Source: Candidatus Acetothermia bacterium (GTDB lineage Bacteria > Bipolaricaulota > Bipolaricaulia > Bipolaricaulales > Bipolaricaulaceae). From it: a stretch of DNA of 11,952 nt. The notes under the pieces were generated by a model, which did not search any database, was not told the origin of the DNA, and saw only the letters and a list, made by a program, of their open reading frames with translations. A program made the position numbers and the translations under genes. Positions 1,551 through 11,067 of this stretch are shown here, in pieces. Numbering within the stretch: the first letter of the stretch is position 1; every line of letters starts with the position of its first letter. The stretch covers positions 1-11,952 of the forward strand of contig PUMK01000136.1 in the NCBI GenBank assembly GCA_003551325.1. Reading direction: 5' to 3'.

Positions 1551-2015
1551 CTACAGTCTCCAGCCGACCGCCAAGCCCAAAATGGGAGCGGGGTCTGGGT
1601 CAGTGAAGATGAACGCGTATCCAGCCTCTACGGTCATGCGCACGTTGTCGGAGGCGCGCCACGCGTAACCGACGGTTGCCCCCAGGCGAAGCTGGTCGAG
1701 GAAGCTGTCTGCATGCTTACCGGATGTTGTCACCAGTGGCCCAGCGAACAGACGGCTTCTCAGTGATGGAAGGCCCTCCGGCGTGAACACGGCGAAATAC
1801 CAGCGCAGACCAACACCGAAGATTCCCGTATCCCGCCCTACTCCTGCCGCAGCCCAGAAGCTGTACCCTTGATCCAGCGCTTCCACATCCAAGCCAAGGC
1901 CGATGACCCCCGCGCCGGCTCCGGTTTTGATATCGAGCACTTGCCGCGTCTCAGCCAACCCTACGGCAAAAGCCATCAGAAGAAGTACGATCGCGAACAA
2001 CAGTACCCTGCGCAT
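1551..2015 (-). CDS. Small exported protein, probably an outer-membrane beta-barrel
   Basis: The 154-residue product has a clear Sec signal peptide (MRRVLLFAIVLLLMAFAVGLA, with cleavage likely after the last Ala). The mature part is rich in Gly and aromatic residues, in short alternating segments such as GYSFWAAAGVG, FGVGLRWYF, LRLGATVGYAW and VRMTVEAGYAF. It ends in ILGLAVGWRL, which resembles the last strand of a small barrel although the final residue is Leu rather than Phe. Eight strands would fit the length. I recognise no named family. ATG at 2015 was chosen because GGAGG (2028-2024) lies eight bases upstream; GTG codons further up would sit on or before that ribosome site. It is divergent from the PhzF-family gene. 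No convincing promoter was found in the gap. Confidence 0.72.
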   Translation of the reverse strand: MRRVLLFAIVLLLMAFAVGLAETRQVLDIKTGAGAGVIGLGLDVEALDQGYSFWAAAGVGRDTGIFGVGLRWYFAVFTPEGLPSLRSRLFAGPLVTTSGKHADSFLDQLRLGATVGYAWRASDNVRMTVEAGYAFIFTDPDPAPILGLAVGWRL

Positions 2016-2259
2016 GCGAAGCACCTCCACGGTGACGTTAGCACAATCGCGTTCCCTAGACCACTGTCACCTCCTGATGTGTCCGCCTTGCATACGGACT
2101 GTACACTGCTCCTACGCTTTGGAAATCGTCGATCTGCGCGAGGCGGCACGACTCCTTGTGAATCGCTTCCACCAGATCCTGCGTGGTTGGCACACGCTGG
2201 ATGAGGGGTTGGTCGTGCGGCTCGACGAGCCGCCGCAGGTAGTGAGAAGGAGGCAACCC

Positions 2260-3183
2260 GTGAAGGAATACCGTTTCATCCAGGTGGACGTGTTCACCGA
2301 TCGGCCATTCGGGGGAAACCCTCTGGCCGTGTTCCCGGAAGCCGAGGGGCTGACCACCGAGGAGATGCAGTGTCTGGCCCAGGAGATGAACCTATCGGAA
2401 ACCACGTTCGTACTGCCAAGTCAGGCGCCGGGCGCTTCGTTCAAGGTGCGTATCTTCACCCCGGCTAAGGAACTCCCCTTCGCCGGTCATCCGGTGGTGG
2501 GCACCCACTGGGTGCTCGCCCATCTGGGTCGTGTAGCGTTGCACGAGCCTGTGACCCAGATGCGATTGGAACTAGGGGTGGGGGTGCTCCCTGCCAACCT
2601 GTACGTCAGCAATGGCCGCGTGGAGCGGGTGGTGATGACCCAAACCCGCCCAGTCTTTGGCGCTATTCTTGACGATACGACGGAGCTGACTGCAGGACTG
2701 GGCTTGCCCCCCGAAGCCATCGCTGAAGCGGCGCTGCCGATACAGGTGGTCTCCACGGGGCTGCCGCAGATGATGGTGCCTGTCCGTTCTCTCTCTGCGT
2801 TGCGGGCCCTGGACGCCAAGCAACTCAACGTGGCTGCCCTCAATCGGGTCTGCCGCGCCCTTGGTGCCGAGTGCACTACGGTCTTCACCCTTGAGACGGA
2901 GCGGCCTGAGGTCACGGTCCACGTCCGTGTGTTCGCCCCTATGGTCGGGGTCCCCGAGGACCCGGCCACCGGCAGCGCCAACGGCGCCCTCGGCGCCTAT
3001 CTGCTCCATCACCAGGCTGTGCCCATCACGGAGCCGACCACCCGCATCCTCAGCGAGCAAGGGACTGAGCTAAGCCGGCCCAGCACCCTGCACGTTGAGG
3101 TGGACAGCGTCGATGGCGACATCAGGGTTGTACGCGTGGGCGGGCGGGTGGTGCCTGTAGCCGAGGGCGTGGTACGGTTCTAG
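2260..3183 (+). CDS. PhzF family isomerase/epimerase
   Basis: The 307-residue protein is full length for the PhzF/diaminopimelate-epimerase fold, which has two pseudo-symmetric alpha/beta domains. Visible family motifs are DVFTDRPFGGNPLAVF near the N-terminus; NLSETTFV with Glu47, equivalent to the catalytic Glu45 of PhzF; FAGHPVVGT with Gly76-His77; and GVPEDPATGSANGALG with Asp234. PhzF itself isomerises trans-2,3-dihydro-3-hydroxyanthranilate in phenazine synthesis. No other phenazine gene is present here, so this is one of the many family members whose substrate is unknown. It is expected to be cytoplasmic. The start is GTG at 2260, with AAGGAGG (2247-2253) six bases upstream and homology beginning at once. 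The open frame extends upstream to 1903 but that part does not look like protein. Confidence 0.92.
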   Translation: MKEYRFIQVDVFTDRPFGGNPLAVFPEAEGLTTEEMQCLAQEMNLSETTFVLPSQAPGASFKVRIFTPAKELPFAGHPVVGTHWVLAHLGRVALHEPVTQMRLELGVGVLPANLYVSNGRVERVVMTQTRPVFGAILDDTTELTAGLGLPPEAIAEAALPIQVVSTGLPQMMVPVRSLSALRALDAKQLNVAALNRVCRALGAECTTVFTLETERPEVTVHVRVFAPMVGVPEDPATGSANGALGAYLLHHQAVPITEPTTRILSEQGTELSRPSTLHVEVDSVDGDIRVVRVGGRVVPVAEGVVRF

Positions 3184-3504: not shown

Positions 3505-4017
3505 ATGCGGAAACCATGCATGGCTTGGGTTGTTCTTCTGGTCTGTGGCTTGTTGTGGACGGGCGGGTTGGCGACCGCTTGGGGAGGAAGCGCTGGCGAA
3601 GACGTGATCTACAGCCTCTCGATAGCGCAGGTTGACGAACTCCTTGCTGAGCGCGAGAACAGCGAAAGGATCGTGGAATACGTAAGGCTTATGCCGGGTG
3701 TCTGGTACTACACCACGTCCTTGGGACAACAGGTGCTGCTGGAGGGTTTTCTTGAGGACGGACTGGTTGTCGACTTCATGACCTTCTACTACGTCGAGTT
3801 CCCGGCCAATGCTACCTATGGCAAACTAGAGCACATCAACGAATGGAATCGTGAAGCTCGGTTCAGCAGAGCCTATGTTGACCAGGATGGTGATGCGGTG
3901 TTGGAGTTCGATCTTGACCTAGAGGGGGGTGTCACGCTAGGAGCTGTACACGCTTTCTTGAACCTCTTCGACGGCATTGCTTTCGGGTTCGAGATGCACA
4001 TTACCCGAGGTGAGTGA
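3505..4017 (+). CDS. Exported YbjN-domain protein
   Basis: The 170-residue product begins with a signal-like segment (MRK, then a hydrophobic stretch to about residue 22, with small residues to about 30). From about residue 35 it matches the YbjN domain (PF10722): residues 88-166 contain VVDFMTFYYVEFP, INEWNREARFSRAY and then VDQDGDAVLEFDLDLEGGVT, which are family landmarks. In enterobacteria YbjN is linked to stress and motility regulation, but its molecular activity is unknown; the fold is similar to that of type III secretion chaperones. An exported copy suggests a periplasmic or surface role here. Start: AAGGAGG lies nine bases before ATG 3505. The Cys in the signal region lacks a proper lipobox. 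It lies 200 bases before the next exported protein. Confidence 0.82.
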   Translation: MRKPCMAWVVLLVCGLLWTGGLATAWGGSAGEDVIYSLSIAQVDELLAERENSERIVEYVRLMPGVWYYTTSLGQQVLLEGFLEDGLVVDFMTFYYVEFPANATYGKLEHINEWNREARFSRAYVDQDGDAVLEFDLDLEGGVTLGAVHAFLNLFDGIAFGFEMHITRGE

Positions 4018-4216: not shown

Positions 4217-5164
4217 ATGATACGCAACGGCGTTGTTGGTCTTCTCGCGGTCTTTCTTGCGGCGTTCACCGTCCTGGGCAGTGCTGTGGAGATGCGCGGC
4301 GCGATCGGCGCATCCATCGAGCTCCTACCGACGCTGGCCGGCAGCTCTCTGTTGAACATCACCGCTTCGGGTGAAGCGTGGACGTTCTCCAGTGACACCT
4401 CGATCAGCTTCTTCCCTGCATTCGGGGTCCAGGAGACGCTGTCCTTTGTGTACACAACTGGTCCCGCCGAACTCACCGCCCAAGCCTCCATGGCGCTCAG
4501 CCCATGGGCGTTCAACTCGGGCAAGCTCATGGCGACGCTCGATCTGTTCAAAGCGGAGCTTCGTGATGATGCCCCGCAGGTGTCGCTTGACGCGAGCTTC
4601 TCGGGGGGCGTAGATCTCAACGAGGATCTGAGCCCATTCGCACAGTTCACGGCCAGGGCCTTGATGGACGTTGCGGAACACTCCCTGAGGTTCACGACAA
4701 CGCTCTCCCTTCTTCCTCTCGGTGTTGCTTCGCAGCTCGTGGCGAACCTGTCTCTCGGTAACATCAGCCTCATCAGTACAACCTCGCTGTCCTTCGCCCC
4801 GTTTGGCATCACGTCGACGCTGCTTGGTCGCATCTCCTTCGAAGATGGGGCGCTTGACGATGCCCAGGATGGTGCTGTTACAGTTTCTGCCTATGCAGAA
4901 CTGCTCCAGAGCATCGTCCCGTTGTCCTTCTCCTACGCGCGCGTCAGCGGGACGGTCACGGCTGAACCATACTCTCTGGAGGGGTCGGTCACTTACTATG
5001 GCGAAGCGGCATTCCATGTGGGGGTGGTGGCAGCCGCTCAACTGGAGCACCTCAAGCTGGAAGCCTGGGCCTCGTACAGTTCAACGGCTGAAACAAGCGT
5101 GGGTGTGGGAGTGGGCGCAACCCTGGCTGTGGGTCCCATCGCGCTTTCGGGGGCAGAGGACTAG
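4217..5164 (+). CDS. Exported beta-rich repeat protein, possible outer-membrane barrel
   Basis: The 315-residue product has a Sec signal peptide, with cleavage likely after GSA at residue 23. The mature protein is almost entirely alternating Ser/Thr/hydrophobic segments. A short motif recurs: SISFFPAFG, SMALSPWAF, TLSLLPLGV and SLSFAPFGI, each followed by a strand such as ASQLVANLSLG or TSTLLGRISFE. That gives a series of beta-hairpins with a Pro-aromatic/Leu-Gly turn. No named family was recognised. A barrel or a beta-stranded surface protein is likely from the composition, but the C-terminus (ALSGAED) is not a classical Phe-ending barrel signal. Start: TGGAGG (4207-4212) lies four bases before ATG 4217. 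It may be co-expressed with the YbjN gene, although a hairpin lies between them. Confidence 0.68.
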   Translation: MIRNGVVGLLAVFLAAFTVLGSAVEMRGAIGASIELLPTLAGSSLLNITASGEAWTFSSDTSISFFPAFGVQETLSFVYTTGPAELTAQASMALSPWAFNSGKLMATLDLFKAELRDDAPQVSLDASFSGGVDLNEDLSPFAQFTARALMDVAEHSLRFTTTLSLLPLGVASQLVANLSLGNISLISTTSLSFAPFGITSTLLGRISFEDGALDDAQDGAVTVSAYAELLQSIVPLSFSYARVSGTVTAEPYSLEGSVTYYGEAAFHVGVVAAAQLEHLKLEAWASYSSTAETSVGVGVGATLAVGPIALSGAED

Positions 5165-6133: not shown

Positions 6134-9100
6134 ATGGTTGTTCGAAGGTTCCTAACATACCTTCTCGCTTCTCTGCTAGTGATGGGTACCATCTCCTTAA
6201 GCCAGAACCAAGGCCACGAGCCGTTCCTACCGGATATCGTGGCCCTGGCCGAGGCGCAAGCTCAGGCCGCGGCAAGGGCCGCGACCCAAGCGCAACAGGC
6301 AGCTGACGATGCGCAAGCGCTCCTCGACAGACTCGACGTCTCCGCGCTGCTGAACGCCTCGGCAAGTGCATCCAGCGAAGCCCAAGCGGTGGCGAACAGC
6401 GCAGCACAAGCAGCAGCTCAAGCTCGATCCGAAGCCAACGCGCTCGCAGCCGCCTGCGCCGATGCGGTTGCACGAGCTCGGGCCAGCGCGCTGGCCTGTG
6501 CCCAGGCCGCAGTGGACGCTCAGGCGATGGCGCAGGCCTTCGCGACGGCGTGCGCATCTGCGGAAACCGACGCCGAGGCATCGGTAAGGGCCTGCGCTGA
6601 CGCCCAGGCCACGGCAGCAGCCTATGCGGAGGCCCTGGTACGGGCCGTAGCCCAGGCCCAGGCGAATGCCGAAGCGAGTGCGGCGGCTTGCGCTGCAGCC
6701 GCGGTCCATGCTCGAGCGTACGCCCGCGCAGTAGCCGAAGCGTTGGCATTGGCGGAGGCGGAAGCCCAGGCTCAGGCGGAGGCTGCGGCCGACGTTGCTG
6801 CCACTGCCCGCGCGGAGGCCCGTGCGGTGGCGGAGGCAGCGGCGTTGGCGGCAGCCAGAGCTCAAGCCATCGCCTCAGCACGTGCCTATGCCGAGGCACA
6901 GGCGGCAAGCTCCGCGCGCGCCTACTCGCAAGCCCGGAGTGCGGCTGAGCTTGTACAACAGAACATCCAGACGGAGGTTCCGTGCGGACTCGTACACACC
7001 GAAGTCAGCGGCGTTGTGGAGGCATTGGCTACCGCCACCGCAAAGGCCAGTGCAACAGCCGAAGCTGCGGCTCAGGCAACAGCCCTGGCCGAGGCTTCGG
7101 CAATGGCGCGTGCGGAGGCAGCCGCTGCTGCACGGGCAAGGGCTGACGCCCAGGCTGCAGCTGCCGCCAGCGCCTACGCGAGGGCCGAAGCGGCAGCCCG
7201 TGCCGTGGCCCAAGCCCGAGCGGAAGCGGAAGCGCAGGCTACAGCAGCTGCCGAGGCCATTGCACAGGCACGCGCAGCCGCCCAAGCGCAAGCGAGGGCA
7301 TGCGCTCAGGCCTATGCCGAGGCCCAGGCGGCGGCAGAAGCAGCAGCCTGGGCGATCGCCCAAGCTCAGGGTTCGGCCGAGGCAGAAGCCACGGCCATCG
7401 CCCGGGCCTGTGCACAAGCACAGGCTGCCGCTCGGGCATCGGCTCGGGCTCTGGCCAGGGCGCAGGCGGAAGCCGAAGCCCAAGCGTCTGCCGCCTCTCG
7501 GGCCTGTGCGAGGGCCGAGGCAACCGCAGAGGCTATGGCCGAAGCGCTTGCCCAAGCCAGTGCCAGCGTTCAGGCCAGTGCACGAGCATCTGCCAGCGCT
7601 CACAGCAGCGCGCGCAGCGCCGCTCAGGCGATGAGGGCCGCCGTTGCCCGAGCCGTCGCCAGGGCAAGAGCTCACGCCGATTCTGCTGCAGCTGCAGCCG
7701 CAACAGCGTGGGCCGAGGCTGACGCATGTGCCCGAGCGGCAGCAGCCGTTCAGGCGTCTGCATCAGCCAGCGCCACCGCTGCCGGAACCGGCGAGGTCTA
7801 CGCGCAAGCTTACGCCTCTGCCGAAGCAATGGGAGCGGCCCAGGCCATTGCGCATGCTCGCGCCGCGGCATCCGCCGCGGCCCAAGCCAGTGCTTCGGCC
7901 CAAGCCGCAGCCCAAGCCCTCGCCGAGGCGGAGGCCGAAGTGAGTGTCGGTATCACAGCAGTGGCCCAGGCTTCAGCCGAGGCCCACGCTGAAGCGTTCG
8001 CTTGCGCCCAAGCCTATGCTCAAGTCGAGGCTTACGTGAGCACCGGCGTCAGCGCACTGGCTGAGGCGCTCAGCGAAGCCGAGGCCGCAGCCTATGCAGC
8101 AACTGTCGCATATGCTGAGGCATATGCCGAGGCGCATGCGTCGGCGGAGGCGCTGGCAGAAGCCCGTGCCGAGGCCTACGCAGCAGCCCACGCTGCTGCC
8201 CTAGCTCAGGCACAAGCTGAAGCCGCGGTGGCGGTCGGCGTCCACGCTGCAGCTGAGGCCCTGGCCGAGGCTGCTGCTGCAGCCTACGCCGCCGCATCCG
8301 CTGAGGCCGTAGCGCAGGCTGAAGCCTTCGCCGCAGCCCAGGCATACGCTGCGGCGGAAGCTCAAGCGTATGCCAGCGCCCAAGCTTGCGCTGTGGCGTT
8401 GGCCCGGGCCGAGGCTTTCGCGTCAGCCGTGGCCGATGCCCATGCCCGTGCTTCGGCTGCTGCTGAAGCAACCGCCGAGGCCTTGGCCCAAGCTCAAGCC
8501 ATGGCCCAGGCAGCTGCGCAGGCGGCGGCCACAGCCTCCACATCGGTCGAGGTCGTCCCACATATCGAGACCTCAGTGCGCGCCTTCATCGATCCTGACT
8601 GTCTGCAACCGGTGTGCGAAGAGTACGTGCCCACCACGCCCACGACACCGGATAGGCCGACAGGTTGCCCTGAGCCGCGCTACCTCAACTGGGATTTCGG
8701 CCAGGTGACACCTGGAACCACAACCAGCTTGACACGGAGCGTGCCCAGCGAACTGGACCAGCAGATCGCCAGCTCGGGGGCAACCACAGCCGAACAGGTG
8801 AGCAGCAACCTACCAGGCAGTCTGTCCTTCGAGCTTCTGCTCACCCAGCGCCAAGGACGCCTCAGCGGCACAGTGCCCGCGAGCGGTGGATCCTGGACTG
8901 TGGAATACCGCTTGCGGGACCGACAGCAGTGCCCGGTGGCCTGGTTGCGTGTTACGATCACTGCCCGAGAGGCTGTCTCCACATGCCCCGAACCCGAAGG
9001 GCTGAAGTGGGACTTTGGCGAGGTACGCGGTGGAACCACTCACGTCCTCACGGTCCGCGAACTGCCGCGCGAGCTGCTTTCCCGGATCCGTACGGCGGGC

Positions 9101-10000
9101 ATCGTGGGGACTCAGCAAATCTCAAGCTCGCTTCCAGAGAGGGCCCAGCTCAGCCTGGATCTGAACCAGGGAGTGGGGGCACTCACCGGCTACCTGCCGC
9201 CTGAGACCCAGACATACCAGGTGCTGTTCAGTCTGACCGACCAGCGCCGCTGCGAGATCTACCGGTTGGCGGTGTCGTTGTACGTGCGGGGGACGGCTAC
9301 CACCGAACCCACTGGACCCACAATCAGCATTGTGCGCCTCTCAGCGGAGGCCGTCTGCGCAACTGACCATAGCCATACCATCGCCTTGGCCTGGCAGGCA
9401 AGCGGGGGGCAGTCTCCCTTGACTGTCGGGCCGATCTCCATCGTCTTCCCCGACGGTCGCACACAGTCGGTGACAGGCAACTACCCGGGGAGCGGATCAG
9501 CAACACTGCGGGTCACCCTGACCCAGGGCGGCACCGTGCTGATACGGGTGCAGGTGACGGACCGCGCTGGTCAGACCAGGATCGCTGAACGGGAGGTGGA
9601 GCTCACCGCTTGCTTCGTCGGGGTCACCATACCTCCCGGCGGCATCAGGTTCCCCACGGTACAGGCCGATGTGCGCGCCAGAAGGACCATCTACACCACC
9701 CCTGGTTATCAGGAACTGAATCTTCCATTCCAGGTGCAGGGTGAGGACACAACCAGGACGACCCCGTTCGTGCTGAGTCGTCTTGTTGGCTCGCAACTCG
9801 TGCTCGAGGCCCCGGCCCGCAGCCAGGCTGCCGGAACGTACGGCATCGGATTCATGGGCTGGGACGTGTGGGTGGGGGACGCGGAGGCGCCAACGCGGTA
9901 TCCCGGGACCTTGGACGCCCGTCGGGGCGTGTACACGTTGACGCTGACACTCCGCTCCAATGTTCGCATCATAGCCATGTACCAAGACATCGTCGGCTAG
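6134..10000 (+). CDS. Giant exported protein: alternating Ala-X tract plus beta-domain C-terminus
   Basis: The 1288-residue protein has a signal peptide ([20 protein letters not shown], with cleavage probably near residues 20-25). After a short Ala/Gln-rich lead-in, residues 83-801 are an alternating (Ala-X) tract, interrupted once at 272-296 by a non-repetitive segment containing TEVPCG. A Cys-containing linker with PTTPTTP (about 806-843) follows. Then come two homologous domains (about 845-944 and 951-1050, each CPEP...W-D-F-G-[QE]-V...LSG/LTG...C), an Ig/PKD-like domain (about 1063-1160, ending in VTDRAGQ...ELTAC), and a final beta-rich domain to 1288. Only two Lys were found (304 and 958). 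The layout suggests a surface fibre, stalk or matrix protein with a binding head; function is unknown and no family was recognised for the tract. Start: AGGAGG (6121-6126) lies seven bases before ATG 6134. Confidence 0.9.
6380..8536 (+). repeat. Alternating Ala-X tract (GCN codon every six bases)
   Basis: In the encoded protein, residues 83-271 have Ala at 84 of 95 odd positions and residues 297-801 at 229 of 253. The exceptions are nearly all Ser, Val, Thr, Ile or Gly; Arg501 is the only bulky charged one. Even positions in the first block, by hand count of 94, are Gln 14, Ala 14, Arg 13, Glu 12, with Leu, Ser, Cys, Val, Asp and Tyr at 4-6 each; there is no Pro, Gly or Lys. Parity is kept across the 272-296 interruption. 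Codons are mixed, with GCC, GCG, GCA and GCT all used, so this is not a recent DNA repeat expansion. The alternation is conserved at the protein level. Confidence 0.95.
7949..8287 (+). repeat. Diverged ~32-residue units inside the Ala-X tract
   Basis: Three segments align without gaps at residues 606-622, 638-654 and 702-718. Each runs Gly, then Val/Ile, a variable residue, Ala, and through a Glu-Ala-rich stretch to Phe/Tyr exactly 16 residues after the Gly. The Gly residues are spaced 32 and 64 apart. A related EALAEA...Y segment at 672-682 fits between them, with local spacings of 28 and 36. Confidence 0.7.
8666..9283 (+). repeat. Tandem duplicated ~105-residue domain in the giant protein
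   Basis: Residues 845-944 and 951-1050 share a common plan: CPEP at the start, W-D-F-G-[QE]-V about eight residues on, then GTT, a Leu/Arg-Glu-Leu helix-like segment, SSxLP, and a strand ending LSGTVP or LTGYLP. Each closes with a [FY]xLxD[QR]xxC strand before a final strand. The spacing of LSG/LTG and the closing strand resembles putative Ig-like (He_PIG-type) domains. The paired Cys of each copy could form a disulfide. Confidence 0.75.
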
Positions 10001-10185: not shown

Positions 10186-11067
10186 TCACCCAGGGCGCTC
10201 TAGCGTAGGGTCTGGCGGGGAGCAGGTGCGTTCGAGCACGAGGACGTACCGGAAGTAGGGCTCAGGCACGAGCCCGTGCCGGGCAAAGGTTCCGACTTGT
10301 TCCTCGCAAGCGACCATCGCCGACAAGCACTCCTGCCCACGTTCCCAAGCGTGGGCGTGAGCGAACCGAAGAAGGGCGTCCTGCCCAACGTCATCACCGT
10401 GCAGGAACGCGACCGTCGCGAACGCAGCCGGCGCGTAGGGATCGGGAGACTGGATGAGGAGCCCGCGCGCTGGATCTCCCCAGATGAACAGCTCCGCACG
10501 AGCAATCCGCTCAGCCAGCCGCTGACGGGTGAGTTCGGGAAACCGCCACCCCAGACCGAGCAGGCCATGCGCGTCACGGTACGCCGACGAAGCACGGACA
10601 ACCGCCCAGGCCGGTTCGATCTCGTGAAGACACGCAACCCCCGGGGGTACGACCTCGTCACGCACCGGACCCTCGACATAGGTGAACCGGGCGATCTCCT
10701 GAAACCCCTGCTTCCCGGCGATGTGCAGGCTCTCCACGTTGGCCTCGGCTGTTGCGAACCGGATCGAGCGCGGTCTCAGGGCCAGCGCAGACTCGAGTTG
10801 CCGCTGGCCAAGGGCCTTGGCCACACCCTTACCCCGCTGGGCCGGGTCGACCCGCAACCCCTCCAACCAGGCTTCGCCCGGCGAGAGCATCGTGAGCTTG
10901 CCATACCCGGCCAGCTGACCGTCGAGTTCAGCCACCGTAAGGCCGCCCTCGGCAAGCCAGTCATCAAGGACAAGGGGGATGTAGTCCTCTCCCTCCCAGA
11001 TCTGGGCGGAGATGGTGAGGATTGCCTCCCGATCCTCAGGCCGCGCGGGACGAAGTGTGATCGCCAC
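10186..11067 (-). CDS. Two-domain GNAT family N-acetyltransferase
   Basis: The 293-residue protein has an N-terminal GNAT domain (about 3-130). It opens with ITLRPARPEDREAI and has WEGEDYIPLVLDDWL at 24-38. The acetyl-CoA-binding motif A, LEGLRVDPAQRGKGVA (68-83, with the Q-R-G-K-G-V loop at 77-82), and motif B (AEANVESLHIAGKQGF) follow. The family transfers an acyl group from acyl-CoA to an amine; the substrate cannot be inferred. The C-terminal half (about 140-280) looks like a second, degenerate GNAT fold lacking a clear motif A (FATVAFLHGDD...ARHGLVPEPYFRYVLVLER). It should be cytoplasmic. GTG at 11067 is the chosen start, with AGGA seven bases upstream. It is transcribed toward the giant gene and diverges from the ribbon-helix-helix gene. 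Confidence 0.88.
   Translation of the reverse strand: MAITLRPARPEDREAILTISAQIWEGEDYIPLVLDDWLAEGGLTVAELDGQLAGYGKLTMLSPGEAWLEGLRVDPAQRGKGVAKALGQRQLESALALRPRSIRFATAEANVESLHIAGKQGFQEIARFTYVEGPVRDEVVPPGVACLHEIEPAWAVVRASSAYRDAHGLLGLGWRFPELTRQRLAERIARAELFIWGDPARGLLIQSPDPYAPAAFATVAFLHGDDVGQDALLRFAHAHAWERGQECLSAMVACEEQVGTFARHGLVPEPYFRYVLVLERTCSPPDPTLERPG

Follow-up and report, generated by a model that had tools for sequence, protein, structure and literature searches.

What fold does a protein adopt when, over several hundred residues, nearly every second one is alanine? The question is raised by an open reading frame (ORF) of 1,288 amino acids in the window, the whole analyzed stretch of 11,952 nucleotides from contig PUMK01000136.1 of the Candidatus Acetothermia bacterium assembly GCA_003551325.1 (a 1.83-Mb draft of 367 contigs, 58% complete; most genomes compared here are drafts as well). 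The central tract of this protein follows an (Ala-X) pattern, with Ala at odd sites and a variable residue X at even sites. Here, we propose as the probable answer that the product is a secreted, very long alpha-helical rod of about 37 nm, an antiparallel three-helix bundle that would carry immunoglobulin (Ig)-like domains at its C terminus and act as a spacer or stalk.

Anatomy of the Ala-X protein

The tract is divided into three parts by two conserved turns, and the complete ORF can be laid out as follows (all on the plus strand).

6134..10000, +: whole ORF of 1288 aa, secreted-looking putative (Ala-X) rod protein, from the ORF list and relatives, with no Pfam match
6134..6205, +: signal-peptide-like N terminus, residues 1-24, with a basic start and a hydrophobic core, ending in SLSQ at a presumed cleavage site
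6233..6946, +: segment H1, residues 34-271, predicted helix 1, strictly alternating from residue 83
6947..7021, +: turn 1, residues 272-296, VPCGxVxxEVxG, with Cys284 in 14/14 aligned rows
7022..7780, +: segment H2, residues 297-549, predicted helix 2, from Ala counts and periodicity
7781..7801, +: turn 2, residues 550-556, AAGTG, with Gly551 in 93% of rows and a +2 insertion site in five closer relatives
7802..8536, +: segment H3, residues 557-801, predicted helix 3, weaker than the other two, with Gly606 and Gly638 conserved
8537..8638, +: end cap, residues 802-835, TSVxVVPxIxTSVxxFIDPxCLxPxC, conserved, with two Cys in every aligned row
8660..9289, +: two similar repeats of ~105 aa, residues ~843-948 and 949-1052, probably Ig-like, from repeated paralogue matches
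9311..9997, +: further conserved C-terminal region, residues ~1060-1288, from the alignment and a weak solved-structure match

The strictly alternating part of H1 is preceded by a softer Ala-rich stretch that begins at about residue 37. A hydrophobic N terminus can also be read from the sequence in most of the full-length relatives displayed, which is consistent with secretion.

Alternation is maintained by selection on the protein

A recount by residue parity over residues 83-801 (6380-8536) places Ala at 313/360 odd sites and 53/359 even sites, or, with residues 272-296 left out, at 313/348 odd sites (90%) and 53/346 even sites (row L001, the window). The hand count of a preliminary description of this DNA is thereby reproduced exactly, as are its coordinates and its statement that parity is never lost within this range; the single interruption that it placed at residues 272-296 is also real, and another conserved break, AAGTG at about 550-556, has to be added to it. 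With the Ala total held fixed, an odd/even split this uneven has a p of ~10^-91. The odd-site exceptions are chiefly V (19), S (10), G (6), and T (4), and the most frequent even-site residues are E, A, Q, R, and S.

Odd-site Ala codons are mixed (GCC 133, GCG 63, GCT 61, GCA 56), and Tandem Repeats Finder (TRF) gives a single weak 50-bp array within the window, so the pattern is not a product of recent slippage. In pairwise comparisons of 14 genes, the window's among them (91 pairs), matched odd-site Ala codons share their third base at a rate of 0.36, compared to 0.33 expected from codon usage, and residue identity is 88% at odd sites and 43% at even sites. The 71 pairs lying within 0.06 of the chance third-base value, a cut-off of our choosing, give 0.33 versus 0.32 for third bases, with 86% and 38% residue identity at odd and even sites. 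Because odd-site Ala is retained while third bases approach saturation, selection on the protein must keep the alternation, as had been proposed from the mixed codons. Homologues keep it as well: Ala makes up 83-92% of odd sites in the 14 aligned relatives that are closer and 67-68% in P0005 and P0006, the most distant pair.

A helical period with a 32-residue repeat

X-site hydropathy has its top Fourier peak at 0.217-0.219 per residue in each of H1, H2, and H3 (tested as residues 83-271, 299-549, and 557-800), both with the window alone and with a 14-row family mean; the p values of 0.002-0.006 are somewhat too small, since the frequency grid used for the 500 permutations was coarser than that used for the data. 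The same result is obtained in H1, H2, and H3 with a polar/charged scale (p 0.002-0.016), and in H1 and H2 with a hydrophobic-class scale. When only even sites vary, 0.218 is inseparable from its alias 0.282, which corresponds to 3.55 residues per turn. We chose the helical alias because the hydrophobic odd-site exceptions fall on the hydrophobic face only at the helical frequency (p 0.0002, 0.005, and 0.04 for H1, H2, and H3). The period per segment, 3.53-3.56 residues, lies within the 3.5-3.67 range of coiled coils and bundles. When relatives were tested singly (1000 permutations, one grid for data and shuffles, segment bounds set by eye), 9 of 11, including the paralogue from the window's genome, had their top peak at 0.218-0.219 with p up to 0.002.

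Hydrophobic X sites autocorrelate most strongly at lags 32, 64, 46, 18, 60, and 50 in H1 and at 64, 32, 28, 14, 36, and 46 in residues 297-801, all of these lying no more than 0.13 turn from a whole number at 32/9 residues per turn, and a secondary Fourier peak at ~0.0625 lies where the second harmonic of 9/32 is expected. When the sites are averaged modulo 32, the number of prominent hydrophobic X positions is three for H1, four for H2, and two for H3. This is not a canonical heptad repeat, as the repeat is 32 residues long with sub-spacings of 14 and 18. Pro occurs at 1/10276 aligned tract residues (breaks left out). Judged from these sequence regularities, the tract reads as an alpha helix with a repeat of 32 residues in nine turns (3.556 residues per turn).

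Conserved Cys residues are also seen at X sites of the tract (residues 108, 122, 140, 154, 186, 390, 426, 458, 624, 752, 780, and others), often on the hydrophobic face of H1, where either a disulfide or a small core residue is conceivable.

Coordinated 32-residue differences in segment length

Segment lengths were compared by three intervals between landmarks (from the start motif to the Cys turn, on to the Gly turn, and from there to the end Cys), the landmarks being located with regular expressions tuned by eye. All four landmarks were found in 17/59 rows (L002 and P0001 being one gene); the other rows are fragments, rows with an unmatched motif, or the uninspected P0009-P0020. Intervals of 244/267/272 are shared by the window, L002 (P0001), L008, L009, L010, L011, L020, and L088. 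We observe 276/299/304 in L033, 214/222/226 in P0005, 215/222/226 in L044, 182/190/194 in P0006, 87/93/102 in P0007, and 87/92/101 in L042 (the P0008 gene), a length series running from 87 to 304 residues per segment. Over residues 38-816, L008-L011, L016, L017, L020, and the paralogue P0001 have zero indels relative to the window. L012-L015 have +2 at 552, L022 has 1+1 at 68 and 2 at 283, L025 has 8 at 68 and 2 at 552, and the distant P0005 and P0006 have many. Length is conserved far better than X-site sequence.

Two separate comparisons display changes of 32 residues in all three segments. P0006 equals P0005 minus exactly 32 residues in each segment: in their global alignment the gaps fall at 100-131, 390-421, and 549-580, flanked by long blocks of 64-73% identity, and when every position is scanned the best placements are 101-132, 391-422, and 553-584. 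The midpoints of these gaps predict fold points at 261.5 (256-271) and 487.5 (472-497), and the observed Cys and Gly turns lie at 261 and 483. The three gaps are compatible with the loss of one slab from a chain that would be folded up-down-up.

The second comparison concerns L033 and L099-L102, which are longer than the window by 32 residues per segment (five rows that may share a single origin). The distance from Cys turn to end is 603 in these five rows versus 539 in the window, Cys-Gly and Gly-end are 299 and 304 in L033 and L099, and start-Cys turn is 282 in four of the five versus 250, read by eye, in the window. In L100 and L101 the Gly landmark is unmatched, and +32 rests on the start-Cys and Cys-end distances. 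The best-scoring insertion sites agree in height between H1 and H2 (207 and 218).

A putative antiparallel three-helix rod

An antiparallel three-helix bundle is the best explanation that we find for the near-equal segments, the fixed turns, the few indels, and the matched-slab length differences taken together. Three Ala-X helices of ~240-250 residues each, joined by the two conserved turns, would fold up-down-up within one chain. Its structural unit would be the 32 residues of nine turns, in which a few hydrophobic X sites would face the core and most other X sites are polar. With Ala at every second site, each face should alternate between bulky and Ala-only zones, which may permit very close helix packing. 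An alpha helix rises 1.5 Å per residue, and the rod lengths calculated from sequence are accordingly ~37 nm for 250 residues, ~28 nm for P0006, and ~14 nm for the short members. Such a rod could hold the probable Ig-like domains away from its base, either at the cell surface or within a wide periplasm.

We infer a spacer or stalk role because length is kept so much better than X-site sequence, as it is in known coiled-coil spacers. Coiled coils that diverge in sequence yet keep their length are described as molecular spacers in excerpts of PMC5082667, with Omp-alpha as a bacterial case.

Several observations count against this reading. Odd-sized changes and changes in single segments do occur (249/267/274 in L089 and 249/267/279 in L060), and the window class exceeds the P0005 class by 30/45/46, which are not multiples of 32. 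The starts of the P0006 deletions are uncertain by 11, 21, and 29 residues (95-105, 386-406, and 528-556, the positions within 10 score units of the best). In the +32 relatives, the best sites in H2 and H3 have heights of 49 and 83, 34 apart, with wide near-equal ranges that overlap. The periodicity is uneven as well: the hydrophobic-class scale has its top peak elsewhere in H3 (p 0.07-0.09), an Ala-at-X-site scale yields no significant peak in H1 or H2, and in the two short members no peak reaches significance (p 0.49 and 0.26 when all frequencies are considered, 0.08 and 0.012 close to the predicted frequency). V is the main odd-site exception in H3, where Gly606 and Gly638, present in 93% of rows and 32 residues apart, stand within VxVGV-like stretches, a poor helix former. 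Finally, a plain bundle gives no explanation for odd-site Ala on all faces, and an antiparallel bundle formed between molecules fits nearly as well.

The conserved Gly stretches of H3 suggest kinks or a locally different structure. VxVGV-like stretches lie at residues 602-610, 634-642, and ~699-706, two of them with the conserved Gly, and are also found in tandem in P0003, P0004, and L060 as a visible trace of the 32-residue unit. Antiparallel cross-correlation of hydropathy gives several near-equal maxima arising from the 32-residue repeat, among which the exact register is not decided, and an out-of-phase layering of H1 against H2 would hinge on a few residues of turn geometry.

Alternative explanations

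The alternative that the helices pair between chains, as dimers, trimers, or swapped assemblies, would give a longer or branched coiled-coil rod in place of a monomeric bundle. We consider it unlikely, although the helices, which must be in register to account for length and period, need not belong to one chain, and Omp-alpha and SlpA, as excerpted below, are multi-chain coiled coils. Similar segment lengths, conserved turns, and compatible deletion heights are most simply those of a self-folded chain, and an extended rod has no need of equal segments.

Two other alternatives dispense with the helical rod. Peptides of the RADA16 and EAK16 type have Ala alternating with charged residues, as the tract does, and one may suppose that alternating Ala lines one face of a beta strand and stacks as in these peptides or in silk, forming a beta-sheet or silk-like fiber. 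RADA16 does make beta-sheet nanofibers (excerpts of PMC8216384). RADA16/EAK16 differ from the tract in being short beta-sheet formers, whereas the tract has a helical period. The strict two-residue alternation, the V, S, G, and T that are frequent among odd-site exceptions, and the VxVGV-like stretches with conserved Gly in H3 would all suit a strand. This reading is nevertheless very unlikely, and with it falls the beta-strand or silk-crystal inference of the preliminary description: X hydropathy has a 3.55-residue period in every segment, the odd-site exceptions share its phase, E, A, Q, R, and S are the leading X residues and Pro is all but absent, and the 32-residue differences affect all three segments together. 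A silk or RADA/EAK-type fiber was rejected as a candidate on the presence of the helical period, since such a fiber should display the two-residue period without it. Least credible of all is the view that an ancient hexanucleotide expansion left the tract behind as a low-complexity relic that has little structure and resembles the Gln-Ala repeat in human TCERG1. The Ala-rich dipeptide pattern would fit such a relic, and the seven rows returned by a search of the tract against solved structures are all Ala-rich or Gln-Ala stretches, local matches to low-complexity parts of TCERG1, Mediator 15, eL29, and an Spt20-like protein. The TCERG1 repeat also has Ala at every second residue in the alignment but is almost pure (QA)n in the aligned stretch. 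Against a relic stand the near-saturated third bases at retained Ala, the one weak tandem array, and a near-constant length with position-specific X sites across genera; slippage or a low-complexity relic was rejected on third-base divergence and near-fixed length.

Alanine on every face

On each face of each helix, including faces expected to be solvent exposed, 78-98% of odd sites are Ala. The argument that a helix gives no reason to alternate does not tell against a helix here, but its other half stands, as why a helix should alternate is unexplained. Either the rods pack on all sides or the alternation has some other packing role. The Alacoil, in which antiparallel helices pack closely via Ala, resembles the proposed rod but has heptad-spaced Ala and not Ala at every second residue.

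More tentatively, and with less expectation of being right than wrong, we suggest a new helix-packing code in which Ala-X on a 32-residue, nine-turn helix would allow big-against-small interlock on all sides, with the 37-nm bundles also packing sideways into a cell-coating sheet or fiber, perhaps the polar extensions of Bipolaricaulis. Cells of one member of the phylum are described with long polar extensions and an unusual shape (excerpts of PMC6092417); linking the rod protein to these extensions is a guess.

If the three-helix rod is correct, it would be a natural helical rod under a two-residue rule, the pattern that sequence reasoning assigns to beta silk. The 32-residue changes suggest that the register of three antiparallel helices is preserved in evolution by altering all three by the same slab, and the length series allows direct tests of rod-length control and of Ala-based helix packing. 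The protein would also offer a handle on the envelope of a phylum with at least one unusually shaped member (PMC6092417, in excerpt).

Comparison with known helical rods

Omp-alpha (OmpA1) of Thermotoga maritima resembles the proposed rod, being a coiled-coil spacer rod of ~50 nm in the cell envelope of a thermophile from a deep-branching lineage (excerpts of PMC5082667 and PMC3387000). The window protein differs in being one chain that is apparently folded three times, in having no SLH match, and in having Ala at every second site. SlpA of Deinococcus radiodurans is similarly a long periplasmic coiled-coil connector, but it is homotrimeric and combines an SLH domain and an outer-membrane barrel in the same chain (excerpts of PMC9388160). 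The family shares with Omp-alpha and SlpA a conserved length, from which a spacer role may be proposed. The heterotetrameric coiled coil of honeybee silk is also an Ala-rich antiparallel helical rod, 24.3 nm long, whose small radius is ascribed to small core residues such as Ala; it differs in having four chains and heptads, with Ala highest at the core (excerpts of PMC12284834). Such enrichment at core heptad positions is not observed in the window rod, where Ala is on all faces.

No SLH domain was found in seven relatives (Pfam at E up to 0.01) or in the window protein (E up to 0.1).

C-terminal domains and distribution of the family

The C-terminal repeats of ~105 residues are probably Ig-like, and their number varies between members. 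At E<=1, 7/14 family members match He_PIG (PF05345), with a best E of 1.5e-05, and the window sequence itself has no such match. A C-terminal family profile gave two weak matches to solved structures, at E 0.036 (part of the profile, to a Biofilm-associated surface protein) and 0.71. Distant members bear BACON-type or PKD-type domains. The window's genome encodes a second copy (P0001; G000:C225, L086) in which the rod intervals are unchanged (244/267/272) and five C-terminal repeats can be counted by eye; between these paralogues the rod is constant and the C-terminal repeat head is variable.

A scan of the 1288-aa ORF against Pfam gave no match at E up to 0.1, and no Pfam model matched the tract; among the titles listed from open-license literature, no such bacterial protein is named. 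A protein collection search returned 20 matches, of which P0001-P0008 were judged to be relatives, some of them fragments, and P0009-P0020 were left uninspected. Six named relatives are Candidatus Acetothermia or Bipolaricaulota, and 10 relatives match over nearly the whole ORF length at 55-63% identity. A search with residues 800-1288 alone returned one match, P0002. Matches at E<=0.001 were found in 47/100 phylum genomes, comprising 28/40 within the window's family and 19/60 outside it, some of the latter covering the C-terminal part or a short piece only; with at most six candidates scored per genome, absences are soft. Some copies look split: L083 (G011) extends over several ORFs with a stop, L080 (G019) has separate rod and C-terminal ORFs, and L016 (G024) has a stop near its 5' end. 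These could be due to decay, assembly error, or true splitting.

Genomic neighborhood

Across 23 regions we observe no common partner gene, the largest cluster of non-Ala-X neighbors having 8 ORFs, as delimited by a crude caller that, in the window, called a longer spurious ORF in place of the GNAT gene and, in the L082 region, gave no Ala-X gene. Three neighbors in the window were assigned by Pfam.

542-1321, -: leucine-rich-repeat protein
1903-3183, +: PhzF-like protein
10186-11067, -: GNAT acetyltransferase

Minus-strand ORFs of up to 300 aa overlie the tract. At 4217-5164 the window encodes a secreted-looking 315-aa protein with no Pfam match that appears outer-membrane barrel-like by eye; near it are an OMP_b-brl-like ORF (1551-2030, minus strand, below the cut-off) and a YbjN protein (3505-4017, plus strand). 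In 4/6 regions analyzed from the family to which L084, L088, L089, and L099 belong (these four regions, in G048, G098, G088, and G079), the Ala-X gene is immediately preceded on its own strand by a gene whose product, of 188-212 aa, is secreted-looking and very rich in Cys; no such gene is seen beside the window gene.
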